Source: Mimachlamys varia (lineage: Eukaryota; Mollusca; Bivalvia; Pectinida; Pectinidae). From it: a stretch of DNA of 64,000 nt. Numbering within the stretch: position 1 is the first letter of the stretch; each line of letters opens with the position of its first letter. This document shows, one piece after another, positions 3,741 through 47,900 of this stretch. The notes under the pieces were generated by a model that made no database searches, was not told the DNA's origin, and saw only the letters and a program-made list of their open reading frames with translations. The stretch spans positions 8,800,001-8,864,000 of the forward strand of contig OX392527.1 in assembly GCA_947623455.1 (NCBI GenBank). The letters run 5' to 3'. Position numbers and translations under genes: made by a program.

Positions 3741-3844
3741 TTTTAAGTTTAGTATATGCCACCTCAAAGTCAGGTCCGGGATGCTTCGAAAACTGAACAC
3801 GTTATGCGACAAGTGGCTCATGCTGATCGCCATTTTGACTGAAC

Positions 3845-4426: not shown

Positions 4427-4838
4427 TGCCTATGTTAAGAGGAAGACCCGCGATCCATTGACAGCGACAGGCAAGCGCGTGCAGTGTCGTCAAAACTCAT
4501 TGCTATGCAGAAAGTGGCAGGACAGCTGATGAAAACTTTGAGACACGGACATTTTGCGTGTTTTTGGAGAAAATCAAGATTATTTCTGCGGATGGAAGAT
4601 ACATATAACGTGCATTTAGGAGGTTTTTAAAATAAATCCATCTTTCCAACGGTATCAAGCGATTTTTCGTACCTCAACTAGAAATATGATTTTGTTATGC
4701 AAGAAATGTAGGTGGGGTCGATTTTTCGACCTGGAAAGCTTTTCATCCTGAAGCCTTTATGACCATTGAGGGGGCATTTTTTTCGACAATTGATCTTAAC
4801 CCCCCCCCCCCCCAAACCTTTAAAATTACTCTAAACAC
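4427..4838. other. Spacer with a homopolymer C tract, no gene seen
   Basis: Unique-looking AT-rich DNA. A poly-C run of roughly 15 bases lies just before 4814. No supported ORF was found. Confidence 0.5.
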
Positions 4839-15118: not shown

Positions 15119-15149
15119 AAGTTTCTTGTATCTTGTACATGTATGTCAT

Positions 15150-16040: not shown

Positions 16041-16044
16041 AGAT

Positions 16045-20782: not shown

Positions 20783-20915
20783 ATGACTGAACACTGTCCG
20801 AGTGGTCAGGAGGTGGACGTGGTGGTAGTGGGCGGTGGCCTTTCTGGACTGACAGTGGCTTATCACATCCATCGAAAGGATCCCAGCCTCAGAGTAGTCG
20901 TATTGGAAGCTAAAG
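20783..20915 (+). CDS. Oxidase exon 1: FAD-binding Rossmann motif
   Basis: Encodes residues 1-44 plus one base. It includes [13 protein letters not shown], the beta-alpha-beta ADP-binding motif, and VVVLEAK, whose glutamate binds the FAD ribose. It ends AAAG|GTATGC (phase 1). The frame is open upstream to a TTG at 20738, but the first ATG is at 20783. Confidence 0.93.
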
Positions 20916-23900
20916 GTATGCAAAATAAGGGTCAGCCTGTAAAAATACAAAATAAAGGGAGGACCACTTTATATATCAACCTCCTTATGTTTGGCAAACC
21001 ATGAGGATTTTTACCTGTCGAAATAAAGATACAAATGTATCTCTATTTAATAAGAGATAGAGATATCTGTAATTTAAATAAAGATATCTCTATTTAAATA
21101 CCGATACATGTATGTCTAGTTTAAATACATATATCTTTATTTCTGCTGCAAACAGAGATATATTCATTTAAAATACATATATCTCTATTTCAAATTCAGA
21201 TATCTCTATTTGAATTACATGTATCTTTCATTGTAATTGAAATATCTTTATTTTGAATACAGATACCTTTATTTCTTGTCCGATAAAAGATATCTGTATT
21301 TGAATTAAAGGTATCTCTTTTTAGAATAAAGATATCGCCAGTATAAGAGAACAACATACAACCGCAACACAACTCGTGGTGTGAAACTTTATATCGGAAG
21401 TGGAACAAACATAGGTACATACTAATAGCCGGAACAACAAAGGGTACATACTAATAGCCGGAGTACGGCCGGACTAACTCCGGTCTATACATCTACTGGC
21501 GCTACCACTTTTTTCCATTGAAAAAGAACAGCTGTACATACTAATATGACACCGTCATAGGGTAGACTGCCCTCAGGTGGAGAAAGGGATTATTCTGCCC
21601 TTGTACATACACACGCATATCTTGCATATGACGAAAATGAATATTGATACTGTACTGTGATTGTTATAAAACTTCAATAAACACTAAACGAGTCAGATGT
21701 CATGAGAGCACCATGACTGGGTAATATACGCATATATTTAAGTAACATAGTCATCCATCCATTTTGGGGGTGCCCGTGGTCGTTGTGGTCTGGTAGGGTG
21801 TACTGGGGGTTCACTAGATTTGTCTGTCTGCATAACGGTAGGTAAGTCTGAAATAATGGACGGTATGTCAGGAGGTTGTTCAGGTTGTGGCAGTTCATTG
21901 ATCATGGAATCACCGTTGGGAGGAAGCTGATGAGGATGGTATTCTTGAGAGGTCTCTGTATCATCCTCCCCTGACGATCCATCTCCGTTCTCGGAGAAAT
22001 TTTCTCTATGATCAAGTTGTAGCGTCGTTGGAGGTACTTTGAAGAGGTCGGAGTCCTTTACACGGTATGATGTACGTCGTAGCTGAGAACCAGCAAATTT
22101 GCAAATGTTACGCCAATGGCCATCATTGGAGACGACTAAATACCGGTCCCGCGCACTGGATTTGTTACGGTCACTGTGAAGGTATACAAGATCACCTACT
22201 GAACTATGAGCAGATGTGGGTGAACGGTTGGATGGTGCTTTGGACTTTTCACTATGTGGGTGATTCGCGATTTTCAGATCGTGTTGGCACATGATAAGAT
22301 TGTGATCATCGAACTTTAATTGCTGATGCGAGAACTGATCACGCTGTGTCCACATTTCACGAGCGGATAACCCTCTATTCCTTATACGAGTATTCATGCG
22401 AGCAGTGGCTAAAGAGAGCAATAGTGGGGTTACAGCTCTGCAAGTAGGGTCCTGATGAAGGATTTCGTTCTCGAGCTCCTGAATAGCTCTTTCTGCTACT
22501 GGGTTTTTGTTAGGATTTTTACTGCGACCGATTTCGACATGTAGCCGATGGCGGGTTAGACACTCGTCGTTCACAAGTGATGCGAACCCAGGAGCACCAT
22601 CTGTTCGTATTACAGCATACGGTCCATCAAGAGGGTGCAGTCCCAAGCATAGTTGAACTAAGCCGTCTCGTACAGATTCTTTTCGTTCGTCATCTAACAT
22701 TGAAGTCACTGTATATGATGTAACACACTCGCGAACTACGAGGATGAGTTGCCGCTCACGTTTAAGTATATCAGCGGCGAATAAGAATCCAACTTTATCA
22801 GGGGGCTCACTTGAGCTCTGCTCCTGTACACAGTGTTGGACGGTTTGAAGAGATGCGCACTGATGACAGCCCTTGGTGATACTTTCAACTGCTTTGTCCA
22901 TATCAAGAGCATGAAAATAGCGATGGACCACTGTTTTGAGTTGGTGATTTGATGGGTGGTCCAACTTGACATGAAGAGAAGTCAGTAAGCCTTCCAAGAC
23001 ATTGCGGGGGACGATGATGCATTCACGCCGAGGTTGGAATGGGATGTCCTTCTTGACAACCAACAAGCCATCATTTGCGACGGAAGCGACCTGCAGGTAC
23101 CGTTTAACGTCCTTGATGTTGGTGAGTTTTTTGGATGGGCGTGTTCCCTGTTTTAAGTGCGCATGTGTGCGTCTTAGGTCTGGGCATTCTCCCTGGATTG
23201 TGGTCCACGCCGGTCTACTGGTGAATGGGAGTTTGACAGACCCATTTAACACATCCTGAGTGGTTACGTGCCTCACAACACAGCCTTCCGTGAGCTGCAC
23301 GAAGGCACAAATTTGGCAGGTCGGGTCTTCGCACTCTGGAGCATTGCGACTTGAGAAGTCGGATGGAAGGATAGCTGCTCCAGCTACATGTCGAATTGAT
23401 ACATGGTACCGGCTAGCTGTTGACAGAAACGTAGACACGCGTGGGCTGGCAGAAAATTCGCCCCTGCACAGCTTCTCGTGTGCTTGTACACATGGTTTGC
23501 TGTCGGTAAGTATGCATGTCCTGGTTGTCGACTGGATAATGTAGGGGCTAAAGTGCTTGACAGCAGCAGCAATTGACAGTGCCTCGATTTCACAGGGAAT
23601 CCATGTGTTTTGATTCTTGCGTAGTTTGGCACTGAAGAATCCAGCAAGTAGGACTTTATTCTTGCGGCTTGTGTACAGAGTAGCGCCCAGGCCTTTGCTT
23701 TTTAGGGCACCATCTGTAACTATCCACAGCTGGTCTGTTGACCGCGGAAGTGTTATGGCCTGATGAGATGATAGTGCTGTTTGAGCTTTTCGGAACGACG
23801 CCAGAAGGTCATCAGACCAGGTAATGGAATCCTTCGATTCCCGACCGGCAGTCATGTCATCGAATGGAGAGAGTAGCCTCGAACAATCTTTGATGACACG

Positions 23901-26900
23901 TCCTAGTACTTTGTACGCGCCTATGAATGATCTTAATGATGACACAGTGGCTGGGGGTTGGCACGAGGCGAGGGAAGCGATGCGATGCGCGCAGGCTTGA
24001 ATTGTTCCTTGACGCCATTTCCATCCGAGAATAGTTGTCTCCTTGGGAGCGATAACCGTCTTAGATGAAGACAAGTGTAGACCGGACTTGTTAACTGCTT
24101 CAAGTAGCTGTGAAAAGTTGGACAGGAGTTCTTCGCTAGTGCTGCCACCGCAATAGAGGTCATCAGCTACTTTGGCAACAGTACCTTCTTGGACAAGGTG
24201 TCCCAACACGCGGCATGTCAGCTCTTCTAAGGCAGTCTCGGAGCCGGGCATTCCCATCGCTGATCGTACATAGACTCGGACACCACGATATGGTGTGACC
24301 ACGCCACAATACTTTTGGGAGTCCTTTGATAGGGGGATTTGATAGAATGATTTGGTGAGGTCGGTGATGGCAATATAATTCCACTGAGCTATCTGTCTCA
24401 GGGTAGAGTCCACATCAGGCATGAGAGATGGTTGGGGTTTGGTATACCTACCCACATCGGCAAAGGCTGTTACTAAGCGGAAGCCACCACTCTGTTTCTT
24501 TATGAGGAAGGATGGGTTAACATACTCTACGTCAACACCAATATCTTCTGGACGACGGAACACACCTATGCTCTCAAGCTCGTCAAACTTTTCTTGAAGC
24601 TGGTTGAGTTGATTTTTGGCGTATTGTGGCATTCTACCCTTGCGCTGTGGTGGTTGTACGGGACCCATGTTAACCCTTGCTTTGAGTGGTCCAACGGCAC
24701 CATTGTATCCTGAAAATGTCGGATTGAAGACATTATCGTATTTATGCAATATGTCCTTGAACTGTGAGCTGACCTCCTCTGGCAAGATGTTGTCTGGATC
24801 AAGGCGGACATTGTCGGAGTACTTGGTGTGACTCTTAGTAGTAATAGGCTGATGTCGTTCGACCGGCGTGTAGTCTTCAGATTTGGGCCCTGTACTATCG
24901 GGTGAGAAGGTTGACCGGACCTTGCAAAAGTGAGAGTTCCTTTTGATAGTTTGAGGCTCAGTAGTCAGATTGGGAATCCTTATGTTTCCAGATACGCTCG
25001 ACACTAGCGAAGGCGGAGGCCAGGAACATCCAGCCATCTCATTTGGTTGGTGTGACTCAATAGAAAATATGTCGTCAGCAGGTGCAATATCTGTCGGTAG
25101 TTTGACTTCAATGAATTCGCCAGGCCATATGGTAGTGGTTTCAGAGACTGGGGCTCTAAGAACATGTGCTCTACGCACCACAGGTTTGTCATTGTCCTGT
25201 GAAAGCGGGCCATATTTATAAATATCTTTTCCCGCTATACTGATTTCATGTCGGGCAGGACGAATTGAAATGTCGTTTTTCTCCATGAACGGGATTCCTG
25301 CTAACACGTCCGTGTCCAGGTTGTCAACTACGAGTCCTTCGAAGTAGAGAGTGTGGCCATTATGGTGGAAAGATATTCTAGTCTCACCAGTAACATGTAA
25401 AGGGGAAAGGCCGTCAGCTTGGTGAGCAGATTGCGATGTGTTTTTGATTGGTGCACTCAAACTGGCCGCAACGGAAGAACGAATCATATTGCCTGTTGCA
25501 CCGCTGTCAATTGTAAGGCGTACAGTGTGGTGATGATAAAAGGTGTCTATATATGGAGATTGGCGAATTTGCACCCTGTTGATTGTAGAAGTATCTGCGT
25601 CATGGTTATCGGATGTTTCATTCTCTTCATCATCGGACATGTCATCTGAGCCTGTGATGATGCGGGCCTTGGCAAGGTACTTCCGGTCGTGTGAGGGGAG
25701 GAAGGTACACTTACTTAGGAAGTGATAGTCAGGGCGACCAGCTTCCTTACATAAGGGACACACTTTGGAGTTAGATGTTCGCTGAGGTAGAGAGCGATTG
25801 GGCTTCATGGGGAAGCGAGGGTTTGATATAGCAGCTCTCATGGCTTTCGCGTCTTCGCTAGTTCTAATCTCATCTAATAATGAGTCCAATGCCTGTGATA
25901 TCTCTGGTTTGATTGAAGCGAGTGATCTCGTACGGAGTTCGGTACCATAGCGTTGCTTGACTAGTCTGGGTAACTCGGTATTTATCAAACGAAGCCACGT
26001 CAGCACCGCCATATTTTCCAATGTGGGAGTAAGTTCTTCGTCTTCTTGCAATTCCGCACCATGGTGGGTGATCCCCATATCTCTCCGGAGTAAATTATCC
26101 TCAATAAAGGCCATTATTCTTTGGAACAGGTCTTCAGGTCTTTCATTTGGTTGGAGTTTTATTGCAGAAAAGTCGATGAAATGTGCTCCAGTTGATTGGA
26201 AACCAAAATGTAGTCTGATAGTTTGCCAAATTTTTTCTAATGACGTTGAGTTCTTAACTATTGTACTACGGGAAATAATAGGGCAATAGTTTGCGATCTG
26301 ACCTAGCATAAGATCCAACATGTTGACTTTCTGTTCTCGCGTTCGCCTACGGGCCTCGGGGACCCCTTCCCCGTCATTTGTGAAACCCCTGTGGGGCGTG
26401 TCTCTAGATTTTTTTTGCCATTGTATTCCATCAACAAGAAATGGGGCGAAGTGTGGATCTAGCGAGAGAGTGTAAATAAGGTTTTGTTTCCAATTTTCAA
26501 ATGAGTTTACAGTCTCCACCTTGCTTAAACACCATTGTTTTGGTGCCCTGTGAGTATTCGCCATTTTCGTCTGGCCGCTAACACATCCACGCTTGTGACC
26601 TGGGTAATAGTTAATTACGCTGCGATTGTCTTAGAAAATGAGTTACACCTACACTGTTTTTTCCATCTGTTTGTCGATAGAGAACGTAGGATCGAATCCT
26701 GCTGCCACCACGCCAGTATAAGAGAACAACATACAACCGCAACACAACTCGTGGTGTGAAACTTTATATCGGAAGTGGAACAAACATAGGTACATACTAA
26801 TAGCCGGAACAACAAAGGGTACATACTAATAGCCGGAGTACGGCCGGACTAACTCCGGTCTATACATCTACTGGCGTATCTTTAATTATTGCTTAAATAG

Positions 26901-29900
26901 GGATATCTACATTTGAAATAAAGATATCTCTAATTGAAATAGAAATATCTCTAATTCAATTACAGATATCTCTATTTGAATTAAGATATCTGTATTTACA
27001 CATGTTTGCTCAGTTTGAAGATTAATATTGAAACACAAAGAAAATAATGATTATACTCCCGAACCATGATCAGTGTTAATGAAACACTTGTAAGTTACGA
27101 GGATACTCTATACTATTTTACTTGTGCCTCCTGGTAAATTCCATCCTGATAAATGTCTTCAGTCACTTCCTCCCTCGCCGTTCGGGACACCTTAGCAGTG
27201 TTGGGGACATTCAGCAACATTCTGTCTGTATTTCCAGCAATGTTGCGTCACTGCGGCTTTTCTTTCATCATGCATAAAAGGATGAGCAAGGGGAGCAATC
27301 ATTTTTCCTATTTGATCGTTAAATACAGATATCGCTATTTTATGTCAAATAGAGATATCTCTAATTGAAATTAAGATATCTGTATTTAAAATAAAGATAT
27401 TTGTATTTCTATTACAATTAGAGATATCTGTATTTGAAATAGAGATATTTGTATTTTAAATACAGATATCTTTATTCTAAATACAGATATCTTTATTTTA
27501 AATACAAATATCTTTATTTACAATGAAAAGCAAATATCTCTTATTGAAATAAAAATATCTTTAATTTAAAAAGAGATATCTGTATTTGAAATAGTGATAT
27601 CTCTATTTCAGTTTAATTAGAGATATTTGTATTTTAAATAGAGATATCTTTAATTCAAATAGAAATATCTCTATTAAAATTAGAAATATCTCTATTTCAG
27701 TTACAGATATCTCTATTTGAAAAGATATCTTTATTTAGAATAAAGGTATCTGATTTAATGGGTAAAACCCAAAAAGCTTGCCAAACTTATGTCCTATTTA
27801 ATTTGTCAAGAAAAAAAAATGAATCCCAAACGATTGTATTAAGAAGGAATTTCAAATGGGTCCAGTTATGTTTGGAGTCAGTATATAAAAATGATTAAAT
27901 CATGAAGAAATTGTGGTTGCTGTTATAACCTAGTTGATTTTGTTCAGAACATCTCTTATTAGAAGTTGTTGGAAAATATTTTGTATTGCACATATCAAAA
28001 CTCTGTGTTGTATATAGAAGTAGCCTAAGGATGTTAATTAATATCAAGTTAAATGGTCTGATAATCTTATATTGGTAGAAGATGGCAGTAATATTATTAT
28101 TATTAAGATGGCAGTCTGAGAAAAACAAAAACTTAAATATTGTTTGTTTCACAGATCGGGTTGGAGGAAGAACACTGACAGTTGAACTTGACAATGGTAA
28201 TGGTACAGATACGTGGGACCTAGGAGGACAATGGGTTGGCAGGTAACCTTGACCCACTTGTAGTGCCACAGGATTTAAATATGTTAAAACATACAAAAGT
28301 CCTTTTATAAAGGTGACCAGAGCGCACAGGGTACTGGGGCTAGTAGGTGACCAGAAAGCACAGGGTACTGGGGTCAGTAGGTGACCAAAGGGCACAGGGT
28401 ACTGGGGCCAGTAGGTAACCAGAGGGTACGGGGTACTGGGGCCAGTAGGTGACCAGAGGGTACAGGGTACTGGGGTCAGTAGGTAACCAGAGGGTACAGG
28501 GTACTGGGGTCAGTAGGTAACCAGAGGGCACATGGTACTGGGGCCAGTAGGTGATCAGAGGGTACAGGGTACTGGGGCCAGTAGGTGACCAGAGGGTACA
28601 GGGTACTGGGGCCAGTAGGTGACCAGAGGGTACAGGGTACTGGGGCCAGTAGGTGACCAGAGGAATCTGGGACCAGTAGGTGATCAGAGGGCACAGGGTA
28701 CTGGGGCCAGTAGGTGACCAGAGAGTACAGGGTACTGGGGCCAGTAGGTGACCAGTGGGTACAGGGTACTGGGGCCAGTAGGTGACCAGAGGGTACAGGG
28801 TACAGGGACCAGTAGGTGACCAGAGGGTACAGGGTACTGGGGCCAGTAGGTGACCAGAGGGTACAGGGTACAGGGACCAGTAGGTGACCAGAGGGTACAG
28901 GGTACTGGGGCCAGTAGGTAACCAGAGGGTACAGGGTACTGGGGCCAGTAGGTAACCAGAGGGCACATAGAACGGGGGCCAGTAGGTAACCAGAGGATAC
29001 AGGGTACTGGGGCCAGTAGGTAACCAGAGGGCACATGGTACTGGAGGCCAGTAGGTAACCAGAGGGTACAGGGTACTGGGGCCAGTAGGTGACCAGAGGG
29101 TACAGGGTACTGGGGCCAGTAGGTAACCAGAGGGTACAGGGTACTGGGGCCAGTAGGTGACCAGAGGGCACAGGGTACTGGGGCCAGTAGGTAACCAGAG
29201 GGTACAGGGTACTAGGGCCAGTAGGTGACCAAAGGGCACAAGGTACTGGGACCAGTAGGTAACCAGAGGGTACTGGGGCCAGTAGGTGACATGAGGGTAC
29301 AGGGTACTGTTGCCAGTAGGTGACCAGAGGGCACAGGGTACTGTTGCCAGTAGGTGACCAGAGGGTACTGGGGCCAGTAGGTGACCAGAGGGTACAGGGT
29401 ACTGGGGCCAGTAGGTGATCAGAGGGCACAGGGTACTGGGGCCAGTAGGTGATCAGAGGGTACAGGGTACTGTTGCCAGTAGGTGACCAAAGGGCACAAG
29501 GTACTGGGACCAGTAGGTAACCAGAGGGTACTGGGGCCAGTAGGTGACAAGAGGGTACAGGGTACTGGGACCAGTAGGTGACAAGAGGGTACAGGGTACT
29601 GGGACCAGTAGGTGACCAGAGGGTACAGGGTACTGGGGCCTGTAGGTGACTAGGGGGTACAGGGTACTGGGACCAGTAGGTGATCAGAGGGCACAGGGTA
29701 CTGGGGCCAGTAGGTGACCAGAGGGTACAGGGTACTGGGGCCAGTAGGTGACCAGAGGGTACAGGGTACTGGGGCCGGTAGGTGAGCAAAGGGCACAAGG
29801 TACTGGGACCAGTAGGTAACCAGAGGGTACAGGGGCCAGTAGGTAACCAGAGGGTACTGGGGCCAGTAGGTGACAAGAGGGTACAGGGTACTGGGACCAG

Positions 29901-32900
29901 TAGGTGACCAGAGGGCACAGGGTACTGGGGCCAGTAGGTGACAAGAGGGTACAGGGTACTGGGGCCAGTAGGTGACAAGAGGGTACAGGGTACTGGGGCC
30001 AGTAGGTGACCAGAGGGTACAGGGTACTGGGGCCAGTAGGTGACCAGAGGGTACTGGGGCCAGTAGGTGACCAGAGGGTACAGGGTACTGGGGCCAGTAG
30101 GTGACCAGAGGGCACAGGGTACTGGGGCCTGTAGGTGACCAAAGGGCACATGGTACTGGGGCCAGTAGGTGACAAGAGGGTACAGGGTACTGGGGCCAGT
30201 AGGTGACCAGAGGGTACAGGGTACTGGGGCCAGTAGTTGACCAGAGGGTACAGGGTACTGGGGCCAGTAGGTGACCAGAGGGTACAGGGTACTGTGGCCA
30301 GTAGGTGACAAGAGGGTACAGGGTACTGGGACCAGTAGGTGACCAGAGAGTACAGGGTACTGGGGCCAGTAGGTGACCAGAGGGTACAGGGTACTGGGGC
30401 CAGTAGGCGCTTGATATAAAGTACTATAATGTTTCCTCAGACCAACTTTCAGGATCATTGACCTTATTTCAAGGTCACAGATTATTCAACATTAATCCCA
30501 GCCAAGCAGTTCAATAAGATGTTCAAACAGATATAAGCCAATATTTGTATTGGATTGAAATCATTTATGAAAACAGGATTCAAAACGAATATACTTTTAA
30601 TGTTTAATTATTTCATATAAGATTCTGTGTTTACTAGCAGCACTAAAATATTTTCCAACAAACAAACCAATATTAAACAGAGCAGACTTATTATTCCGTC
30701 ACAATCACAGAAAGTGTTCCCGATACTGTTCATGTAGGTGTCAACCCCACATTACCAAGCTGTTGGCGGAGTTAGGTCTGGAAACCTACCCACAGTACAT
30801 ACAAGGCAGGAAGTTTATGCAGTTAGGAGGAGATGTTGTGACCAGTTACACTTCTGACATACCATCCTTGTCTGGCCTGGCTCTTATTGATCTACAACTC
30901 ATGATCAATCGGGTGAGATTTTGATTTTTGTGTTCAGTCAAACCTGAATCGGGTGACACAACAATTATGAGGTGGAATTGAAATATTTAAAATTTACTTT
31001 TGTTTGAATGTTTGATGTCACAAACAAAAATTTAAAGCAGAATCAAATTACTGATTGCACAGATTGCAATCATTTATTACATGAAGGGCTCTATTTTACT
31101 CGTACACAAACTGAGACATCACACACAATGATATGGTGCTACAATGTACTTATTTATACCATAGAAATACTTCATCTTAGAGAAGGGGGATTCGCTCAGC
31201 TATAAGCTAGGACATTAGACGTAGCTTAGTGTAGAATATTAAAAATATTTATTTGTGTCCAAGGTAGAGAGGCTGAGGAAGATGGTGGATGCCAGAGACC
31301 CATACAATTGCCAATGTTCTAAGTTTGCTGCTGAATTGGATGGTATGTCGTTGGACAGCTTCATGAGGAAGCATATGTGGACGAAGGGTGAGTACATACT
31401 GTCATGTGTATATCACTGAGATGTTATACACTCAATGAATGTGTTGGATATGTTGATTGTAAAATCTAGATGGGATGCAAAAGTTCAAGAGGCAATTTGT
31501 TTTAAAATCAATTAGAATGAGAAATACCTATATTCAGACAAAGGAATCCGTACTTGATTGTTAGATACCATGTAGTCGATGTCCGTTGTGGTCAGTTTGA
31601 TTATTGGGAAAGCCAGTGCCAAATATAGCGACATCAAAATATGGCACGAAATAACTACACCCCCTGGCTCAACCACATGTATGTGTGTTGTAAGCAATTG
31701 GACGTGAAGACACGAGTTTGATTTCACACGTACTTTCACGGTCTGCTGGATAAACGAAATATGTCGTCAACAATTATGATATATATGATTATTATTAGAT
31801 CTCATGAGAAATTGTGTCGGTATACTTCAAACTAACCAAAAGCAGATATTATTGAAAGCTCTCATACACAGGGGTCCTCTGAAGGTAAATTTGTTAACCT
31901 GAAAACATGCATGCTCCATGAGGTCAAAATGCTCAGAGATGTTTGTAAACATATTTCTCATTTGCATGGGTTGGACGATTAAGGATTTCCATATTATCAA
32001 TTGAAATATGAATGGAAAACATAAAGTTTTGTCAAAATATCGGTATGAATAGTTCACAAGGAGTCCCGAACTACAATTTTATAAAATATTTGGTGATACA
32101 GTAGACTCCACTTAATATCACTCCTGTTAATATCACATTCCTCTTTATATCATGTTTTTCCCAAGCACCATTTTTCTCTCGATATAATCTATGTAATTTT
32201 ATTTTGTTAATATCATGTATTTTGAGGTAAATTCCTCTTAATATCATGTTTTTTTTAACGAATCACATAATATACCCTGAAAATGATGTAATTTCCATTG
32301 ATTTCAGTTACAACTTGAACAAAATGTTACATAGAAAATAACAAATATCCCCAAAACTGTTTTTAATTGAAATGATTTTATCTATATATTGATACATTTT
32401 CATATGTACATTAAAAAGCTTACATTTTGTTATGAAGATTGGAAATGCACTACATTTAATGGAAAAACATATTTCTCTTACCGGTAATGTCACATTCCTG
32501 TTAATATCATGTTTTTGTCTGACAAATGCAACAAACTTCACTTAATTGCCCCTTTAAAGCTAAATAAAATTGCTGATAAGTTTGCCAAGTTTAAAATGAA
32601 ATAACCTGCAATTTCAGGTGCTAAAGAATGTATTGATGCTGCCAACAGGACAATATTAGGGGTGGAGGCGTCACAGGTCTCTGTGCTCTTTTATCTGATG
32701 TATGTGTCTGCAGCAGGAGGCATCCGTCCTTTGGTGGAGGCAACCGACAACACTGGACAGGAGTCTAAAATTATAGTAGGTCCCCCATTATTATAGACTA
32801 TAGTAGGTCACCCATTATCATAGACTATTGTAAGTCACCCATTATCATATAGACTACAGTAGGTCACCCATTATCATAGACTATAGTAAGTCACCCATTA

Positions 32901-35900
32901 TCATAGACTATAGTAAGTCACCCATTATCATAGATTATAGTAAGTCACCCATTATCATAGACTACAGTTAGTCACCCATTATCATAGACTATAGTAAGTC
33001 ACCCATTATCATAGACTATAGTTAGTCACCCATTATCATAGACTATAGCATGTCACCCATTATCATAGACTACAGTTAGTCACCCATTATCATAGACTAT
33101 AGTAAGTCACCCATTATCATAGACTATAGTTAGTCACCCATTATCATAGACTATAGCATGTCACCCATTATCATAGACTACAGTTAGTCACCCATTATCA
33201 TAGACTATAGTAAGTCACTCATTATCATAGACTATAGTTAGTCACCCATTATCATAGACTATAGTAAGTCACCCAGTATCATAGACTATAGTAAGTCACC
33301 CATTATCATAGACTATAGTAAGTCACCCATTATCATAGACTATAGCATGTCACCCATTATCATAGATTATAGCAAGTCACCCATTATCATAGACTATAGT
33401 AAGTCACCCATTATCATACACTACAGTAAGTCACCCATTATCATAGACTACAGTAGGTCACCCATTATCATAGACTACAGTAGGTCACCCATTATCATAG
33501 ACTATAGTAAGTCACCCATTATCATAGACTAAAGTAAGTCACCCATTATCATACACTACAGCAAGTCACCCATTATCATAGACTACAGTAGGTCACCCAT
33601 TATCATAGATTATAGCAAGTCACCCATTATCATAGACTATAGTAAGTCACCCATTATCATAGACTATAGTAAGTCACCCATTATCATACACTACAGTAAG
33701 TCACCCATTATCATAGACTACAGTAAGTCACCCATTATCATAGACTGTAGTAAGTCACCCATTATCATAGACTAAAGTAAGTCACCCATTATCATACACT
33801 ACAGCAAGTCACCCATTATCATAGACTATAGTTAGTCACCCATTATCATAGACTATAGTAAGTCACCCATTATCATAGACTACAGTAGGTCACCCATTAT
33901 CATAGACTACAGTAGGTCAGCCATTATCATAGACTACAGTAGGTCACCCATTATCATAGACTATAGTAAGTCACCCATTATCATAGACTATAGTAGGTCA
34001 CCCATTATCATAGACTATAGTAAGTCACCCATTATCATAGACTACAGTAGGTCACCCATTATCATAGACTACAGTAGGTCACCCATTATCATAGACTATA
34101 GTAAGTCACCCATTATCATAGACTAAAGTAAGTCACCCATTATCATACACTACAGCAAGTCACCCATTATCATAGACTATAGTAGGTCACCCATTATCAT
34201 AGATTATAGTAAGTCACCCATTATCATAGACTATAGTTAGGCACCCATTATCATAGACTACAGTAAGTCACCCATTATCATAGACTATAGCAAGTCACCC
34301 ATTATCATAGACTACAGTAGGTCACCCATTATCATAGACTATAGTAAGTCACCCATTATCATAGACTATAGTAAGTCACCCATTATCATAGACTATAGTA
34401 AGTCACCCATTATCATAGACTACAGTAGGTCACCCATTATCATAGACTATAGTTAGGCACCCATTATCATAGACTATAGTAAGTCACCCATTATCATAGA
34501 CTATAGTAAGTCACCCATTATCATAGACTATAGTAAGTCACCCATTATCATAGACTACAGTAGGTCACCCATTATCATAGACTATAGTAAGTCACCCATT
34601 ATCATAGACTATAGTTAGTCACCCATTATCATAGACTATAGAAAGTCACCCATTATCATAGACTATAGTAGGTCACCCATTATCATAGACTATAGTAAGT
34701 CACCCATTATCATAGACTATAGTAAGTCACCCATTATCATAGACTATAGTAAGTCACCCATTATCATAGACTATAGTAGGTCACCCATTATCATAGACTA
34801 TAGTAGGTCACCCATTATCATAGACTATAGTAGGTCACCCATTATCATAGACTATAGTAAGTCACCCATTATCATAGACTATAGTAAGTCACCCATTATC
34901 ATAGACTATAGTAAGTCACCCATTATCATAGACGATTGTAAGTCACCCATTATCATAGACTATAGTAGGTCACCCATTATCATAGACTATAGTAAGTCAC
35001 CCATTATCATAGACTATAGTAAGTCACCCATTATCATAGACTATAGTAAGTCACCCATTATCATAGACTATAGTAAGTCACCCATTATCATAGACTATAG
35101 CAAGTCATCCATTACATAGACTATAGTAAGTCACCCATTATCATAGACTATAGTAAGTCACCCATTATCATAGACTATAGTAAGTCACCCATTATCATAG
35201 ACTATAGTAAGTCACCCATTATCATAGACTATAGTAAGTCACCCATTATCATAGACTATAGTAAGTCACCCATTATCATAGACTACAGTAGGTCACCCAT
35301 TATCATAGACTACAGTAGGTAACCCATTATCATAGACTATAGTAAGTCACCCATTATCATAGACTATAGTTAGGCACCCATTATCATAGACTATAGTAAG
35401 TCACCCATTATCATAGACTATAGTAAGTCACCCATTATCATAGACTATAGTAAGTCACCCATTATCATAGACTATAGTAAGTCACCCATTATCATAGACT
35501 ATAGTAAGTCACCCATTATCATAGACTATTGTAAGTCACCCATTATCATAGTCTATAGTAAGTCACCCATTATCATAGACTACAGTAGGTCACCCATTAT
35601 CATAGACTATAGTTAGGCACCCATTATCATAGACTATAGTAAGTCACCCATTATCATAGACTATAGTAAGTCACCCATTATCATAGACTATAGTAAGTCA
35701 CCCATTATCATAGACTATAGTAAGTCACCCATTATCATAGACTATAGTAAGTCACCCATTATCATAGATTATAGTAAGTCACCCATTATCATAGACTATA
35801 GTAGGTCACCCATTATCATAGACTATAGTAAGTCACCCATTATCATAGACTATAGTAAGTCACCCATTATCATAGACTATAGTAAGTCACCCATTATCAT

Positions 35901-38900
35901 AGACTATAGTAAGTCACCCATTATCATAGACTATAGTAAGTCACCCATTATCATAGACTATAGTTAGTCACCCATTATCATAGACTATAGTAAGTCACCC
36001 ATTATCATAGATTATAGTAAGTCACCCATTATCATAGACTACAGTAAGTCACCCATTATCATAGACTATAGTAGGTCACCCATTATCATAGACTACAGTA
36101 GGTCACCCATTATCATAGACTATAGTAAGTCACCCATTATCATAGACTATAGTAAGTCACCCATTATCATAGATTATAGTAAGTCACCCATTATCATAGA
36201 CTATAGTAAGTCACCCATTATCATAGACTATAGTAAGTCACCCATTATCATAGACTATAGTAAGTCACCCATTATCATAGACTAAAGTAAGTCACCCATT
36301 ATCATAGACTATAGTAAGTCACCCATTATCATAGACTATAGTAGGTCACCCATTATCATAGACTATAGTAAGTCACCCATTATCATAGACTATAGTAAGT
36401 CACCCATTATCATAGACTATAGTAAGTCACCCATTATCATAGACTATAGTAAGTCACCCATTATCATAGACTATAGACAGTCGGACATATAATGTGTAAT
36501 TCTGTATAAATAGTAGAGTGTACATTCAGACCTATGTATGATGCCTTATTACCAAGGATGGTTTCTGTATTGACAGGGATGGTTTCTGTATTAACAGGGA
36601 TGGTTTCTGTATTGACAGGGATGGTTTCTGTATTGACAGGGATGATTTCTGTATTGACAGGGATGGTTTCTATATTGACAGGGATGGTTTCTTAATTGAC
36701 AGGGATGGTTTCTGTATTGACAGGGATGGTTTCTGCATTGATAGGGATGCTTTCTGTATTACCAGGGATGGTTTTATTACCAGGGATGGTTTCTGTATTG
36801 ACAGGGATAGTTTCTTAATTGACAGGGATGGTTTCTGTATTGACAGGGATGGTTTCTGCATTGATAGGGATGCTTTCTGTATTACCAGGGATGGTTTCTG
36901 TATTAACAGGGATGGTTTCTGTATTGACAGGAATGGTTTCTGTATTAACAGGGATGGCTTCTGTATTGACAGGGATGGTTTCTGTATTGACAGGGTGGTT
37001 TCTGTATTGACAGGGATGGTTTCTGTATTAACAGGGATGGTTTCTGTATTGACAGGGATGGTTTCTGTATTGACAGGGTGGTTCACAGCAGATATCACAG
37101 ATGTTGGTGGAAAAAGTTGGATCAAAGAATGTTCTTCTGGAGCATCCAGTTGATGCCATCAAACAGGTATAAATTGTTGTATTTAGGAATCATGCAATTA
37201 CTTATCACACAGGGAACGATGAGAGTTCAGTGGAGGACTCTCTGAACAGTCAAGGAAAGGACTTCTTTAAAAGCGGCATTGAGGACCTTAAACATTGCTG
37301 GCAAAAGTGTGTATAGATACTGATGAAATCAATGCGATATGTCCACCAAAAGGCAAACCCTTATATATGAGGCTCACAGCTTATCAATCAGCCCTAGTTC
37401 CTGCATGAAGTGGTATTAAGTTTCCTCAAAAAAATTGATCTTGAACTACTTTCAATGTCATAGGGGTTAAACATAAAATAAGAGTCATTCATTTACTTTT
37501 CCACAAAAGTCTGCGGGAGTTACTCCCCCTGTATCATTATTTCTGTATTCTATACTCGATAAGGACTAATTAAGTCTGTGGGAGTTACTCCCCTTGTATC
37601 ACTATTTCTGTATATTCTATACTAGGTGAGGACTAATTAAGTGCCTCCCATTGTATCACTATTTCTGTATATTCTATACTAGGTGAGGACTAATTAAGTG
37701 CCTCCCATTGTATCACTATTTCTGTATATTTTATACTAGGTGAGGACTAATTAAGTTACTCCCCTTGTATCACTATTTCTGTATAGTCTATACTAGGTAA
37801 GGACTAATTATTTCTGGCTAGGTAAGGACTAATTATTTCTGGCCTGGTGAGGACTAATTAATTCTGGCTAGGTAAGGACTAATTATTTCTGGCTCGGTAA
37901 GGACTAATTATTTCTGGCTAGGTGAGGACTAATTATTACTGGCTAGGTGAGGACTAATTAAGACAAAACCTGTTTGATTCTTCAACAAAATTAACTGAAA
38001 TGAAGTGAAACCTGAAAACTTGTTAAACAATCTTCTCAATAATTAGAAAGGCAGTGAAGAAGTGATATTTATTGACCTTAAACAGGAGGCCAAGACGCGA
38101 ATATACGCTTACAAAAGGCCGTTAAACTGATATTAATATTGATATTGATTTAGCACACTAGATACCTGAGACAGAGTGTTATAAGGGGTCCTCAAACAAA
38201 TGATCTTGATCCAATTTCAAGGTCAGTGAGGTCAAATATGTAAAACTTTAAAAACTTATATTCTGAATAACCAGAAGGCCCAGAGTACTGATACTTGACC
38301 AGTGGATACCTGAGACAGAGTACCGATACATGGCCAGTTGGTACCTGGGGCAGAGTACTGATACTTGGCCAGTGGGTACCTGGGACAGAGTACTGATACT
38401 TGGCCAGTGGGTACCTGGGACAGAGTACTGATACATGGCCAGTGAGTACCTGGGACAGAGTACTTATACTTGGCCAGTGAGTACCTGGGACAGAGTACTG
38501 ATATATGGCCAGTAGGTACCTGGGACAGAGTACTGATACTTGGCCAGTAGTTACCTGGGACAGAGTACTGATACTTGGCGAGTAAGTACCTGGGACAGAG
38601 TACTGATACTTGGCCAGTGAGTACCTGGGACAGAGTACTGATACTTGGCAAGTAGGTACCTGGGACAGAGTACCGACACTTGGCCAGTGGGTACCTGGGA
38701 CAGAGTACTGATACTTGGCCAGTGGATACCTGGGACAGAGTACTGATACTTGGCCAGTTAGTACCTGGGACAGAGTACTGATACATTGCCAGTGAGTACC
38801 TGGGACAGAGTACTGATACTTGGCCAGTGGGTACCTGGGGCAGAGTACTGATACTGGGATAGAGTACTGATACTTGGCCAGTGGGTACCTGGGACAGAGT

Positions 38901-41900
38901 ACTGATACTTGGCCAGTGAGTACCTGGGACAGAGTGCTGATATATGGCCAGTGGGTACCTGGGACAGAGTACTGATACTTGGCCAGTGAGTACCTGGGAC
39001 AGAGTACTGATACTTGGCAAGTAGGTACCTGGGACAGAGTACCGATACTTGGCCAGTGAGTACCTGGGACAGAGTACTGATACTTGGCAAGTAGGTACCT
39101 GGGACAGAGTACTGATACTTGGCCAGTGGGTACCTGGGACAGAGTACTGATACTTGGCCAGTGAGTACCTGGGACAGAGTACCGATACATGGCCAGTTGG
39201 TACCTGGGGCAGAGTACTGATACTTGGCCAGTGGGTACCTGGGACAGAGTACCGATACTTGGCCAGTGGGTACCTGGGACAGAGTACTGATACATGGCCA
39301 GTGAGTACCTGGGACAGAGTACTTATGCTTGGCCAGTGAGTACCTGGGACAGAGTACTGATATATGGCCAGTAGGTACCTGGGACAGAGTACTGATACTT
39401 GGCGAGTGAGTACCTGGGACAGAGTACTGATACTTGGCGAGTGAGTACCTGGGACAGAGTACTGATACTTGGCCAGTGGGTACCTGGGACAGAGTACTGA
39501 TACTTGGCAAGTAGGTACCTGGGACAGAGTACTGATACTTGGCAAGTAGGTACCTAGGACAGAGTACTGATACTTGGCGAGTGAGTACCTGGGACAGAGT
39601 ACCGCTACTTGGCCAGTGGGTACCTGGGGCAGAGTACTGATACTGGGATAGAGTACTGATACTTGGCCAGTGAGTACCTGGGACAGAGTACTGATACTTG
39701 GCCAGTGGATACCTGGGACAGAGTACTGATACTTGACCAGTGGGTACCTGGGACAGAGTACTGATACTTGGCCAATGAGTACCTTGGGGAGTCTGCCCCA
39801 GGTACTCACTTGACAAGTATCAGCACTCTGTCACAAAGTGCTGATACTTGGAAAGTGGGTACCTGGGACAGAGAACTGATACTGGGATAGAGTACTGATA
39901 CTTGGCCAGTGGGTACCTGGGACAGAGTACTAATAATGGCCAGTGGGTACCTGGGACATACCTGGGACAGAGTACTGATACTTGGCCAGTGAGTACCTGG
40001 GACAGGGTACTGATACTTGGCAAGTAGGTACCTGGGACAGAGTACCGATACTTGGCCAGTGAGTACCTGGGACAGAGTACTGATAATTGGCAAGTAGGTA
40101 CCTGGGACAGAGTACTGATACTTGGCAAGTAGGTACCTGGGACAGAGTACTGATACCTGGCCAGTGAGTACCTGGGACAGAGTACCGATACATGGCCAGT
40201 TGGTACCTGGGGCAGAGTACTGATACTTGGCCAGTGGGTACCTGGGACAGAGTACCGATACTTGGCCAGTGGGTACCTGGGACAGAGTACTGATACATGG
40301 CCAGTGAGTACCTGGGACAGAGTACTTATACTTGGCCAGTGAGTACCGGGGACAGAGTACTGATATATGGCCAGTGGGTACCTGGGACAGAGTACTGATA
40401 CTTGGCCAGTAGTTACCTGGGACAGAGTACTGATACTTGGCCAGTGAGTACCTGGGACAGAGTACTGATACTTGCAAGTAGTTACCTGGGACAGAGTACT
40501 GATACTTGGCAAGTAGGTACCTAGGACAGAGTACCGCTACTTGGCCAGTGGGTACCTGGGGCAGAGTACTGATACTGGGATAGAGTACTGATACTTGGCC
40601 AGTGGGTACCTGGGACAGAGTACTGATACTTGGCCAGGGAGTACCTGGGACAGAGTACTGATATATGGCCAGTGAGTACCTGGGACAGAGTACTGATACT
40701 TGGCCAGCGAGTACCTGGGACAGAGTACTGATACTTGGCAAGCAGGTACCTGGGACAGAGTACTAATACTTGGCCAGTGAGTACCTGGGACAGAGTACTG
40801 ATATATGGCCAGTGGGTACCTGGGACAGAGTACTGATACATGGCCAGTGAGTACCTGGGACAGAGTACTTATGCTTGGCCAGTGAGTACCTGGGACAGAG
40901 TACTGATATATGGCCAGTAGGTACCTGGGACAGAGTACTGATACTAGGCGAGTGAGTACCTGGGACAGAGTACTGATACTTGGCGAGTGAGTACCTGGGA
41001 CAGAGTACTGATACTTGGCCAGTGGGTACCTGGGACAGAGTACTGATACTTGGCAAGTAGGTACCTGGGACAGAGTACTGATACTTGGCAAGTAGGTACC
41101 TAGGACAGAGTACTGATACTTGGCGAGTGAGTACCTGGGACAGAGTACCGCTACTTGGCCAGTGGGTACCTGGGGCAGAGTACTGATACTGGGATAGAGT
41201 ACTGATACTTGGCCAGTGAGTACCTGGGACAGAGTACTGATACTTGGCCAGTGGATACCTGGGACAGAGTACTGATACTTGACCAGTGGGTACCTGGGAC
41301 AGAGTACTGATACTTGGCCAATGAGTACATTGGGCAGTCTGCCCCAGGTACTCACTGGACAACTATCAGCACTCTGTCACAAAGTGCTGATACTTGGAAA
41401 GTGGGTACCTGGGACAGAGAACTGATACTGGGATAGAGTACTGATACTTGGCCAGTGGGTACCTGGGACAGAGTACTAATAATGGCCAGTGGGTACCTGG
41501 GACATACCTGGGACAGAGTACTGATACTTGGCCAGTGAGTACCTGGGACAGGGTACTGATACTTGGCAAGTAGGTACCTGGGACAGAGTACCGATACTTG
41601 GCCAGTGAGTACCTGGGACAGAGTACTGATAATTGGCAAGTAGGTACCTGGGACAGAGTACTGATACTTGGCAAGTAGGTACCTGGGACAGAGTACTGAT
41701 ACTTGGCCAGTGAGTACCTGGGACAGAGTACCGATACATGGCCAGTTGGTACCTGGGGCAGAGTACTGATACTTGGCCAGTGGGTACCTGGAACAGAGTA
41801 CCGATACTTGGCCAGTGGGTACCTGGGACAGAGTACTGATACATGGCCAGTGAGTACCTGGGACAGAGTACTGATACTTGGCCAGGGAGTACCTGGGACA

Positions 41901-44900
41901 GAGTACTGATATATGGCCAGTGAGTACCTGGGACAGAGTACTGATACTTGGCCAGTGAGTACCTGGGACAGAGTACTGATACTTGGCAAGCAGGTACCTG
42001 GGACAGAGTACTAATACTTGGCCAGTGAGTACCTGGGACAGAGTACTGATATATGGCCAGTGGGTACCTGGGACAGAGTACTGATACATGGCCAGTGAGT
42101 ACCTGGGACAGAGTACTTATGCTTGGCCAGTGAGTACCTGGGACAGAGTACTGATATATGGCCAGTAGGTACCTGGGACAGAGTACTGATACTTGGCGAG
42201 TGAGTACCTGGGACAGAGTACTGATACTTGGCGAGTGAGTACCTGGGACAGAGTACTGATACTTGGCCAGTGGGTACCTGGGACAGAGTACTGATACTTG
42301 GCAAGTAGGTACCTGGGACAGAGTACTGATACTTGGCAAGTAGGTACCTAGGACAGAGTACTGATACTTGGCGAGTGAGTACCTGGGACAGAGTACCGCT
42401 ACTTGGCCAGTGGGTACCTGGGGCAGAGTACTGATACTGGGATAGTGTACTGATACTTGGCCAGTGAGTACCTGGGACAGAGTACTGATACTTGGCCAGT
42501 GGATACCTGGGACAGAGTACTGATACTTGACCAGTGGGTACCTGGGACAGAGTACTGATACTTGGCCAATGAGTACATTGGGCAGTCTGCCCCAGGTACT
42601 CACTGGACAACTATCAGCACTCTGTCACAAAGTGCTGATACTTGGAAAGTGGGTACCTGGGACAGAGAACTGATACTGGGCCAGCGAGTACCTGGGACAG
42701 AGTACTGATACTTGGCAAGCAGGTACCTGGGACAGAGTACTAATACTTGGCCAGTGAGTACCTGGGACAGAGTACTGATATATGGCCAGTGGGTACCTGG
42801 GACAGAGTACTGATACATGGCCAGTGAGTACCTGGGACAGAGTACTTATGCTTGGCCAGTGAGTACCTGGGACAGAGTACTGATATATGGCCAGTAGGTA
42901 CCTGGGACAGAGTACTGATACTAGGCGAGTGAGTACCTGGGACAGAGTACTGATACTTGGCGAGTGAGTACCTGGGACAGAGTACTGATACTTGGCCAGT
43001 GGGTACCTGGGACAGAGTACTGATACTTGGCAAGTAGGTACCTGGGACAGAGTACTGATACTTGGCAAGTAGGTACCTAGGACAGAGTACTGATACTTGG
43101 CGAGTGAGTACCTGGGACAGAGTACCGCTACTTGGCCAGTGGGTACCTGGGGCAGAGTACTGATACTGGGATAGAGTACTGATACTTGGCCAGTGAGTAC
43201 CTGGGACAGAGTACTGATACTTGGCCAGTGGATACCTGGGACAGAGTACTGATACTTGACCAGTGGGTACCTGGGACAGAGTACTGATACTTGGCCAATG
43301 AGTACATTGGGCAGTCTGCCCCAGGTACTCACTGGACAACTATCAGCACTCTGTCACAAAGTGCTGATACTTGGAAAGTGGGTACCTGGGACAGAGAACT
43401 GATACTGGGATAGAGTACTGATACTTGGCCAGTGGGTACCTGGGACAGAGTACTAATAATGGCCAGTGGGTACCTGGGACATACCTGGGACAGAGTACTG
43501 ATACTTGGCCAGTGAGTACCTGGGACAGGGTACTGATACTTGGCAAGTAGGTACCTGGGACAGAGTACCGATACTTGGCCAGTGAGTACCTGGGACAGAG
43601 TACTGATAATTGGCAAGTAGGTTCCTGGGACAGAGTACTGATACTTGGCAAGTAGGTACCTGGGACAGAGTACTGATACTTGGCCAGTGAGTACCTGGGA
43701 CAGAGTACCGATACATGGCCAGTTGGTACCTGGGGCAGAGTACTGATACTTGGCCAGTGGGTACCTGGGACAGAGTACCGATACTTGGCCAGTGGGTACC
43801 TGGGACAGAGTACTGATACATGGCCAGTGAGTACCTGGGACAGAGTACTGATACTTGGCCAGGGAGTACCTGGGACAGAGTACTGATATATGGCCAGTGA
43901 GTACCTGGGACAGAGTACTGATACTTGGCCAGTGAGTACCTGGGACAGAGTACTGATACTTGGCCAGTGAGTACCTGGGACAGAGTACTGATATATGGCC
44001 AGTAGGTACCTGGGACAGAGTACTGATACTTGGCGAGTGAGTACCTGGGACAGAGTACTGATACTTGGCGAGTGAGTACCTGGGACAGAGTACTGATACT
44101 TGGCCAGTGGGTACCTGGGACAGAGTACTGATACTTGGCAAGTAGGTACCTGGGACAGAGTACTGATACTTGGCAAGTAGGTACCTAGGACAGAGTACTG
44201 ATACTTGGCGAGTGAGTACCTGGGACAGAGTACCGCTACTTGGCCAGTGGGTACCTGGGGCAGAGTACATATACTGGGATAGTGTACTGATACTTGGCCA
44301 GTGAGTACCTGGGACAGAGTACTGATACTTGGCCAGTGGATACCTGGGACAGAGTACTGATACTTGACCAGTGGGTACCTGGGACAGAGTACTGATACTT
44401 GGCCAATGAGTACATTGGGCAGTCTGCCCCAGGTACTCACTGGACAACTATCAGCACTCTGTCACAAAGTGCTGATACTTGGAAAGTGGGTACCTGGGAC
44501 AGAGAACTGATACTGGGATAGAGTACTGATACTTGGCCAGTGGGTACCTGGGACAGAGTACTAATAATGGCCAGTGGGTACCTGGGACATACCTGGGACA
44601 GAGTACTGATACTTGGCCAGTGAGTACCTGGGACAGGGTACTGATACTTGGCAAGTAGGTACCTGGGACAGAGTACCGATACTTGGCCAGTGAGTACCTG
44701 GGACAGAGTACTGATAATTGGCAAGTAGGTACCTGGGACAGAGTACTGATACTTGGCAAGTAGGTACCTGGGACAGAGTACTGATACTTGGCCAGTGAGT
44801 ACCTGGGACAGAGTACCGATACATGGCCAGTTGGTACCTGGGGCAGAGTACTGATACTTGGCCAGTGGGTACCTGGGACAGAGTACCGATACTTGGCCAG

Positions 44901-47900
44901 TGGGTACCTGGGACAGAGTACTGATACATGGCCAGTGAGTACCTGGGACAGAGTACTTATACTTGGCCAGTGAGTACCTGGGACAGAGTACTGATATATG
45001 GCCAGTGGGTACCTGGGACAGAGTACTGATACTTGGCCAGTGAGTACCTGGGACAGAGTACTGATACTTGGCAAGTAGGTACCTGGGACAGAGTACTGAT
45101 ACTTGGCAAGTAGGTACCTAGGACAGAGTACCGCTACTTGGCCAGTGGGTACCTGGGGCAGAGTACTGATACTGGGATAGAGTACTGATACTTGGCCATT
45201 GGGTACCTGGGACAGAGTACTGATACTTGGCCAGGGAGTACCTGGGACAGAGTACTGATATATGGCCAGTGAGTACCTGGGACAGAGTACTGATACTTGG
45301 CCAGTGAGTACCTGGGACAGAGTACTGATACTTGGCAAGCAGGTACCTGGGACAGAGTACTAATACTTGGCCAGGGTTATATATCAATACTAGTAAAACT
45401 CAAGTTGTATGGTTAGGGAGCTGTAAATATAGTGATGTAACATATAGGCCAGATTTGAACTTACAATGGGGAAAAAATAGATTTATATTTTTGGGGATTG
45501 AGTTTTCAGTTGACTTGGATCAAATACCTAAAATGAATTTTGACAAAAAAATTGTAAAACTCAAATCAATTCTGACATCGTGGAAGAGGCGGAGCTTGAC
45601 TCCGATTGGTAAAATCAATATTATCAAGTCTTTATTAATCTCACAACTAAATTATTTATTCATTACATTACCAAACCCACCAGAAAAATATATCACTATG
45701 ATAAATTCTTTATTATTTGACTTTTTGTGGAATGGTAAATGCCATAAGATCAAAACAGACGTTATTATTCAAAATTATGCAGATGGTGGGCTCAAGATGA
45801 TTGACGTGTATGCTTTCATTCATTCATTAAAGCTAGGTTGGATTAGAAGATTATTTATGTCTTCAGGCAAATGGTATCTGATACTCAAGTCAACTCTAGA
45901 TTTAAATAAGCTATATAGTTGTGGGAAAGATTTTGTTAAATTATGCATATCAAGGTGCCAAAATAAATTTTGGAAAGATGTCTTTAAAGCATGGGATAAA
46001 TTAAACTATTCTGAAGATATGAGGCTAAAAAGACAAGATTGTATTCTTAAAACACCTCTTTGGTACAATAATGACATTAAAGTTAACAACAAATTTGTTT
46101 TCTATCCCAACTGGTATATGACAGGTATCTTAACTTTAAATGATTTGATGAAAAATTCTGAAAATCTAGCCTTTCTTTCTTTTGATGAATTTATACAAAA
46201 ATTTGGAATTAATACTAATTTTTTACAATATCATGGACTAATATTGGCAATAAAACACTATTTAAGAAATCTCGAGTTAAAACCAGAGAAGCTTTCACAC
46301 CCTTTTATACCACAATTATTAGAAATATTTTTTAAGAACAAAAAGGGTGTGAAAGACTTCTACAGGTTTATAATAACTCCAACAACAACTCCTACAGGTA
46401 CTAGGAAATGGAATTTGAGCTTTAACTTTGATAGAGAAATGTGGTTAAAAATATATAATCTTCCTTTTAAGGTAACAAAAAATTCTAAATTGATATGGTT
46501 TCAAGTCAGAATTATTCATCATATCTTAGTTACAAATACCTTCCTTCATAAGATAAGAATAAATCCTAGCCCTATGTGTACTTTATGTAATATGGAAAGG
46601 GAGACAATTATACATTGCTTATGGGAATGCAAGGAGGTGCAAACTCTTCTTCATAAATTTGAAACTTTGTTAGATTTGTTGTTTATACCTTTTGCATATA
46701 ATAAAAACTCATTTCTTTTTGGAATAGTTTTACAAAATTGTAGTTCTGTTGACAACGAAATTTTAATCATTATGAAACATTACATATATAAAACCAGATG
46801 TCTTAGCAATTCTTTGAATATCAATGCTCTCGTTAATGTAATTAAAGATAATTTTGTAGTCCAAAAATATATATATAACAGTCTTAGTGACCATGGTAAA
46901 AGACAATTTGATTTAGGCTGGAGGAAGTGGAAGCCTTTATTGGATCTATGAGTTGTACTTATATTAGTTTTTTACACATCCTACCCTGGTCTTAAACTTA
47001 TTGTTATATACACTGTATAATTATATAAATACAGGTAACTTACTTTTCTTTTACTTATCTTCTATTGTTGTATATCATAACACTGAATGTTGTGGTCTGC
47101 ATCGCTGACTAGCCCAGTGATTTATCAGTATTTTATTTTTTAATACATATTGTATTACAATATTCTTGTACATGCATGTATGCAATAATTACATGTATGT
47201 AATTAAGAAATGGTACCTCCCCCTCTCTCTTCCTTTCTCTCTCTTCCTATCTCCTCCTTAGTGTGTCTTCTGCCTTTCTGTCTGTGAGGGTGTGTGTGAG
47301 GATGCGTGTGTGTGTGTGTATAGGTGTGTGTATATATATGTGTATGTATATACATGTTTGTTATGTATGCAGGATCTTCCCTGACACTGGTTTCATGCGT
47401 GCTATTCGCAGAAAATCCATCAAGGCCTCCCAAACTAAACGTCTTTGCACTCTGCATCCTTAGGATGTACAGTGTACTGTTAATTCTAAAATACGTCATT
47501 TTATTTTTATTTATTTATAAAGGTAACTAAAGTGCTTGTTGTTGAAGGACACATTGTTTAATTTACAATTCCTGGTTTCAAATTTGAGAGCCCCTAGGAC
47601 CTTTTATAACAAAATATGAGGGAAAATCCTGTTTATGTTATGTTGATTTATGCTAGGTTGTACTATGTTATGTCATGATGCTACATATGCAGGCATATTT
47701 GTTATGCCTCGCTACGTATGTATATATGTATGTATGCATGTATGTATGTATGACCTATCATAGCATACACAATGATTTTTTGAATGCTGTGGGTGCGAGT
47801 GTGCAAGTGATTGTTTGTTGATGTCTATTTATGTATACCATGTAAAATGTCTGAAAATAAAAGAAATATAAAAAAAAAAAAAAAAAAAAAAATACTTGGC

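Follow-up and report, generated by a model that had tools for sequence, protein, structure and literature searches.

How can an intron be removed correctly when both of its splice sites have been copied many times over, right up to the borders of the exons? This question is raised by intron 5 of a flavin monoamine oxidase gene of the scallop Mimachlamys varia, which lies in C1:8800001-8864000, a stretch of 64,000 nucleotides (hereafter the window, whose positions are counted from its first letter) in a genome of 975 Mb and 71 contigs. An earlier note, made from the letters of the window, had described about 135 tandem copies of a 27-bp unit that start on the donor of exon 5. The observation is confirmed and is larger than first noted, as amplification has also reached the acceptor of this intron. 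What is new is the pairing of arrays on the two ends of a single intron, a very high copy number and pseudo-donors nearer to the consensus than the real donor, and the locus is a new, extreme form of boundary minisatellite. The features are as follows.

20783..57109, plus strand: flavin monoamine oxidase gene from start to stop codon, 11 exons, 531 amino acids (exon-by-exon model)
32618..32775, plus strand: exon 5, 158 nt, ending AAA ATT ATA, phase 0 (gene model; KII-GGS joined in the homologs P0002, P0003 and P0004)
32776..32781, plus strand: real 5' splice site of intron 5, ATA/GTAGGT, with no G at -1; it is unit 1 of the donor array
32772..36476, plus strand: donor array, about 27-bp units in 137 copies, consensus GTAAGTCACCCATTATCATAGACTATA (Tandem Repeats Finder (TRF), segmentation, column counts)
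36477..36555, plus strand: non-repeat sequence of intron 5, 79 bp, the sole part outside the arrays
36556..37083, plus strand: acceptor array, about 21-bp units in 25 copies (GGATGGTTTCTGTATTGACAG), whose final AG is the real acceptor at 37076 (TRF, segmentation)
37077..37166, plus strand: exon 6, 90 nt, 30 codons, starting GGT GGT TCA CAG (gene model)

The borders of intron 5

All ten introns of the gene model are GT-AG introns in phase, the reading frame is intact, and the full 531-residue protein matched the Pfam family Amino_oxidase (PF01593) with an E value of 3.4e-65; the 83-residue piece of exons 5 and 6, searched alone, gave no Pfam match. Homolog counts in this work cover the 120 listed of 1545 matching proteins, and among these matches the best named proteins are from Mizuhopecten yessoensis (85% identity), Ylistrum balloti (81%) and Pecten maximus (79%). 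The residues KII/GGSQQIS run uninterrupted across the junction in three of the four closest proteins (P0002, P0003 and P0004), the fourth, P0001, being without exon 6, and human monoamine oxidase B aligns gap-free across the junction residues. P0003 is probably transcript-derived (complementary DNA), because it is listed with a longest contig of only 3431 bases for a protein of 544 residues. The in-frame gene model and the homologs contradict an end of exon 5 elsewhere, so the exon border assumed in the earlier note appears to be the right one.

The donor array

In the one haplotype covered here, TRF reported a single array at 32772-36476 with a period of 27, 137.2 copies and 94% matches, and segmentation from the splice site gave 137 units, 134 of them exactly 27 bp long, which agrees well with the copy number first claimed. 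At its edge exon 5 reads ...AAA ATT ATA/GTAGGTC with the border at 32775/32776, and unit 1 opens on the donor; gene model, TRF and segmentation agree that the array starts on a functional splice site. By TRF it takes in the last 4 bases of exon 5, and the 12 exon bases 5' of the donor are identical to the commonest unit at 8 of 12 positions.

Most of the units (126 of 137) open with GT. The donor hexamers are GTAAGT in 85 units, GTAGGT in 28 including the real site, GTTAGT in 9 and GCAAGT in 6, with the rarer GTTAGG (4), GCATGT (3) and GAAAGT (1) and one unit out of register. When donors were scored with a hand-entered weight matrix, the real donor of exon 5 reached 4.35, the ten donors of the gene spanning 4.23-10.24. 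In the array 87 of 262 GT sites outscored it and 115 of 262, the real one counted, scored equal or higher, which bears out the earlier statement that the spliceosome is offered more than a hundred equal or better donors. Counted by units, 85 of the 137 match the donor consensus better than the real site does. The weak context of that site likely predates the array, since no isoleucine codon ends in G and isoleucine at the last codon of exon 5 is common to the four closest proteins; among the listed homologs this residue is lysine in 91 and isoleucine in 5.

Could the arrays then be a regulatory device, in which decoy sites cut the yield of functional messenger RNA (poison splicing) or cause skipping of exon 6? 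The abundance of units nearer to the consensus than the real donor would fit such a role. The changes within the array do not look like selection for strong donors, as 97 of the 125 deviations from the consensus in the 134 units of 27 bp fall within the nine donor columns (-3 to +6) of the 27, although +1 G and +5 G hardly vary, with one deviation each. These columns are about sevenfold more variable than the other columns of the unit. Such column counts are no test of selection, because the units share changes by descent. About ten units folded as RNA were mildly more stable than shuffled sequences (z -2.22; 2 of 200 shuffles as stable).

The long transcript might also use the array as landing pads of the U1 small nuclear ribonucleoprotein (snRNP). 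In telescripting, U1 snRNP protects long transcripts from premature polyadenylation, and the 85 GTAAGT units would speak for such a role. At a score threshold of 6.9 the sense strand has 21.9 donor-like sites per kb and the opposite strand 0.0; at a threshold of 4.3 the two are nearly equal (31.0 and 27.0 per kb). The 27-bp array is not alone in having donor-like units: of 35 arrays in 22 stretches sampled from the genome, 6 likewise show a strong donor motif, on either strand, in at least 30% of their units. We regard a function as U1 landing pads as very improbable.

Equally hard to credit is an artefact, in which exon 5 would end elsewhere or the copy number would have been inflated. The copy number of long arrays is indeed hard to assemble, but all junctions are in phase, the homologs fit gap-free at the junction, adjacent units differ by scattered substitutions, and no spacing among 1-39 units stands out as a higher-order repeat or duplicated block.

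The acceptor array

On the exon 6 side of the intron, TRF extended the array into the first 7 bases of exon 6. Segmentation gave 25 units, of which three are off register or have an unusual length. AG closes 24 of the 25; the one exception is cut off register and has its CCAG ending at 36783. The array contains 22 branch-point-like motifs of the form YNYTRAY, and each of its last four AGs has the branch A of the preceding unit 23-24 nt upstream. Of the 4301 bp of intron 5, the two arrays together account for 4222. No such array was found in introns 3, 4, 7, 9 and 10 of the gene.

Outcome of alternative joins

When the donor array is read in the frame of exon 5, a stop is met at the seventh codon, and because this stop falls inside unit 1, every later donor would take it in. 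The acceptor stretch has 27 AGs, the last being the real one, and 25 of the 26 others yield a stop when read into exon 6; the exception, at 36993 and 83 nt upstream, meets no stop within exon 6, yet is out of phase. It follows from the stops and phases of the other joins that the enzyme is expected from the outermost pair of donor and acceptor only. Recursive splicing was considered and set aside, as the array donors are mostly ATAGTAAGT and not AG/GT after a pyrimidine tract (read from the units, without a separate test).

That nearly all alternative joins end in a stop would also suit a poison-splicing device. A further point for regulation is the closest ortholog, P0001 of Mizuhopecten yessoensis, which lacks exactly the 30 residues of the in-frame 90-nt exon 6 and is the only such case among the listed homologs; its missing exon may reflect exon skipping, or a gap in annotation or assembly, in which case it would say little about splicing. 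Known systems speak against regulation. Normally the first donor alone is used in the repeated donors of human factor VII (PMC6627357), and in amphioxus splicing is regular despite repeats at the boundaries (PMC3087553). Altogether we find a regulatory role improbable.

Precedents for repeats at splice sites

The earlier note held that a minisatellite seeded by a functional splice donor was not a described class. This part does not stand, as precedents are found in amphioxus and in human factor VII and CBS. In amphioxus, minisatellite-like repeats called 'mirages' have units that lie across an exon-intron boundary, 5' or 3', in Adh3, BflGb6 and BflGb9, and they left regular splicing undisturbed (PMC3087553). 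Their units measure 150-160 bp in BflGb6, where they are present three or six times, and 10-72 bp in Adh3, while BflGb9 has a 157-bp duplicate (PMC3087553). The scallop arrays resemble them in that units cross the exon-intron boundary, although the exon share is weak (4 bases of exon 5 and 7 of exon 6), and in that many units in both systems have AG or GT signals (in the scallop 126 of 137 with GT and 24 of 25 with AG). The scallop, a mollusc, differs in that a single intron carries 27-bp units in 137 copies at one end and 21-bp units in 25 copies at the other; a double-ended intron was not found in the mirage descriptions of the parts available (PMC3087553).

In intron 7 of human factor VII, the donor lies in the first of several 37-bp repeats and normally only the most upstream one is used (PMC6627357). 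The likeness is close in that unit 1 of the scallop array holds the authentic donor and the other repeats lie downstream; the differences are that 85 of 137 scallop units are nearer to the consensus than the real donor and that the acceptor is amplified too. The reading frame and the homologs suggest that the scallop likewise uses its most upstream donor. The 31-bp variable number tandem repeat of human CBS, c.1444_1467+7 in 16-21 copies (PMC2630376), is also a minisatellite across the exon-intron border at a donor. Unlike the scallop unit, the CBS unit consists largely of exon sequence (24 of its 31 bp, read from the name), and it concerns one boundary and far fewer copies.

On a wider scale, 162 alignments of human duplicated genes showed tandem repeats at exon-intron boundaries, of which manual inspection left 27 intron modifications (PMC2812944). 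Introns gained by tandem duplication resemble our case in that the duplicated sequence bears splice signals (PMC4974935); unlike them, scallop intron 5 is not new, because paralogs share its position and phase without having these arrays. Among the titles and abstract openings listed by searches of open-licence papers, none concerned a boundary minisatellite in molluscs or one that occupies the two ends of a single intron.

Paralogs and the local origin of the arrays

The genome searches score the best candidates only and skip very common words, so that their counts are not exhaustive. Among these best candidates, all 62 matches to the donor junction and first units and all 11 matches to the acceptor junction lie at the monoamine oxidase locus. 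Because the junction searches matched this locus only, both arrays were probably born there. A classification as dispersed satellite DNA was rejected, all 62 and 11 matches among the best candidates being local.

Paralogs of the gene form a cluster at C18:9.10-9.15 Mb, and in three of them (L031, L032 and L033) an intron 5 of identical position and phase is present, in which neither the 27-bp nor the 21-bp array was found. A gain of intron 5 by tandem duplication was rejected, since these paralogs have the same intron without the arrays. L032 carries a different 28-bp array of 53.9 copies (3159-4662 of its reverse complement) that fills most of its intron 5 and stops 15 bp before the acceptor. 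The paralog pieced together from L039, L033 and L038 covers 14.9 kb, with exons 1-9 matched without stops and exons 10-11 beyond the stretch fetched.

In L033 (C18:9145900-9150900) the acceptor of intron 3 and about 14 bases of exon 4 occur nine times in tandem, and the last copy is the real one. On the reverse complement four copies lie at 1924-2062 and five at 3135-3313, 1.1 kb apart, within repeat regions at 1902-2072 and 3096-3326. The corresponding acceptor and exon 4 start are single copy in L032, and the genome search matched, among the best candidates, these places in L033 and L032 only. A splice site can seed an array in this genome, as the nine copies in L033 against one in L032 indicate, and the order of events would be that the L033 array grew from its splice site and L032 kept the single-copy state. 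The claim of a minisatellite seeded by a splice site thus gains a second case. With its units of intron end and exon start and about 14 exon bases per unit, the L033 array spans the boundary clearly and resembles that of BflGb6. One copy against nine within one gene family also provides an array together with its single-copy counterpart. The exon 4 donor of both L032 and L033 reads GTG/GTCTGT, an unusual 5' splice site.

A probable mechanism of tolerated growth

We consider it probable, taking the whole explanation together, that the arrays are tolerated passengers of the mirage type and that exon definition picks the exon-proximal sites. An ancestral intron 5 would have been short, and each of its two splice sites would have been captured in the unit of a newborn minisatellite, as in a mirage-type boundary repeat. 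Slippage or unequal exchange may then have expanded the units into the intron, until the donor array measured about 3.7 kb and the acceptor array 0.5 kb; the arrays would have stayed anchored on the exons and grown inward because the coding side could not change. The spliceosome would still pair the exon-proximal donor with the exon-proximal acceptor, through exon definition over the short exons 5 and 6. Misjoined transcripts would be expected to go to nonsense-mediated decay, since nearly all other choices insert stop codons of the arrays. The arrays would be no regulatory device. This explanation is supported because both junctions of an in-frame gene sit on array edges, because the amphioxus boundary repeats left regular splicing undisturbed (PMC3087553), because paralogs have this intron without the two arrays, and because the genome is rich in minisatellites.

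Several points weigh against the passenger explanation. The 4 and 7 exon bases within the arrays and the match of 8 of 12 are insufficient alone to prove that exon sequence was copied. Splicing at the first donor and the last acceptor in Mimachlamys varia is deduced from protein homology, and the P0001 protein without exon 6 could signal disturbed splicing around intron 5 in scallops. Two arrays at both ends of an intron are improbable as independent random events within the gene (7.5e-5, a post hoc figure).

The locus is a natural test of site choice by the spliceosome, in which 137 donor units stand against 25 acceptor units, most of them with their own branch-point-like motif. With it, the boundary minisatellites described in amphioxus and humans gain a mollusc example that occupies both ends of an intron.

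Chance placement or preferred birthplace

The tandem structure itself is far beyond chance; the matter to be weighed is its placement. In 20 hand-chosen stretches of 10 kb across C1-C12 (L011-L030), counting arrays with a period of at least 10 and at least 4 copies, 32 arrays took up 19.8% of the 200 kb sampled (bootstrap 95% range 11-31%). The minisatellite load of the sampled genome is thus very high, at about one fifth. Random seeding at this density, assuming 200,000-400,000 splice sites, would place about 1100-2300 splice sites in arrays and hit about 3-6 introns at both ends. If array starts are limited to a distance of 5 bp from the site, about 0.1 double-ended introns are expected (160 per Mb x 5 bp, squared, x 150,000 introns). 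As a share of all splice sites, the range expected from the density is about 0.08-0.6%. In a post hoc simulation within the gene, at least one array fell on a splice site with a probability of 0.049 and two with 0.001, and both ends of one intron were hit with the 7.5e-5 given above.

The last figure favours a different explanation, in which minisatellites of this genome arise preferentially at splice sites, introns lengthen through copies of their own ends and intron 5 is one product of this general process. Two further observations point the same way: in two monoamine oxidase genes, 3 of the 36 splice sites fall within arrays (the donor and the acceptor of intron 5 in the gene studied here, and acceptor 3 of the L039, L033 and L038 paralog), and the 28-bp array of L032 ends close to an acceptor. 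These genes are a biased sample, chosen because of the finding, and random placement by itself already predicts the numbers of affected sites and double-ended introns given above. As a control, four TCP-1 loci were taken, with 25 of 52 listed PF00118 exon matches in 31.8 kb, the splice sites not being mapped singly. Only one of the four loci had TRF arrays, at about 55 bp from an acceptor, and no array lay on a splice site, which counts against a hot spot, though weakly, because these loci are array-poor. The 3 of 36 sites against none near 25 exon matches suggest clustering in the monoamine oxidase family, the samples being small and the first one biased. On balance we hold a general preference for splice sites to be unlikely. 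Its end state would be an intron 5 consisting to 98% of self-copied splice sites, in which only the exon-proximal choice among thousands of joins keeps the gene working and leakage, as in the ortholog model without exon 6, is a by-product; this fuller version appears more doubtful still.

Other repeats in the window

In intron 6 a 35-bp array whose units bear GTGAGT takes up about 8 kb (38281-45374 and 47892-48833) and is interrupted by a plus-strand reverse-transcriptase-like frame at 45329-46951 (read by eye). A minus-strand open frame of 1630 codons lies within 21402-26837 in intron 1 and has the look of a retroelement by eye; it is bounded by short repeats of equal TRF consensus (21402-21462 and 26777-26837) and is probably a long terminal repeat element. 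At 15147-16042 and 17259-19077 of the window there are two arrays with 45-bp units, and by eye their consensus sequences seem to be mutual reverse complements. They bracket a 158-bp array at 16055-17221, and these inverted minisatellites are perhaps part of a mobile element.

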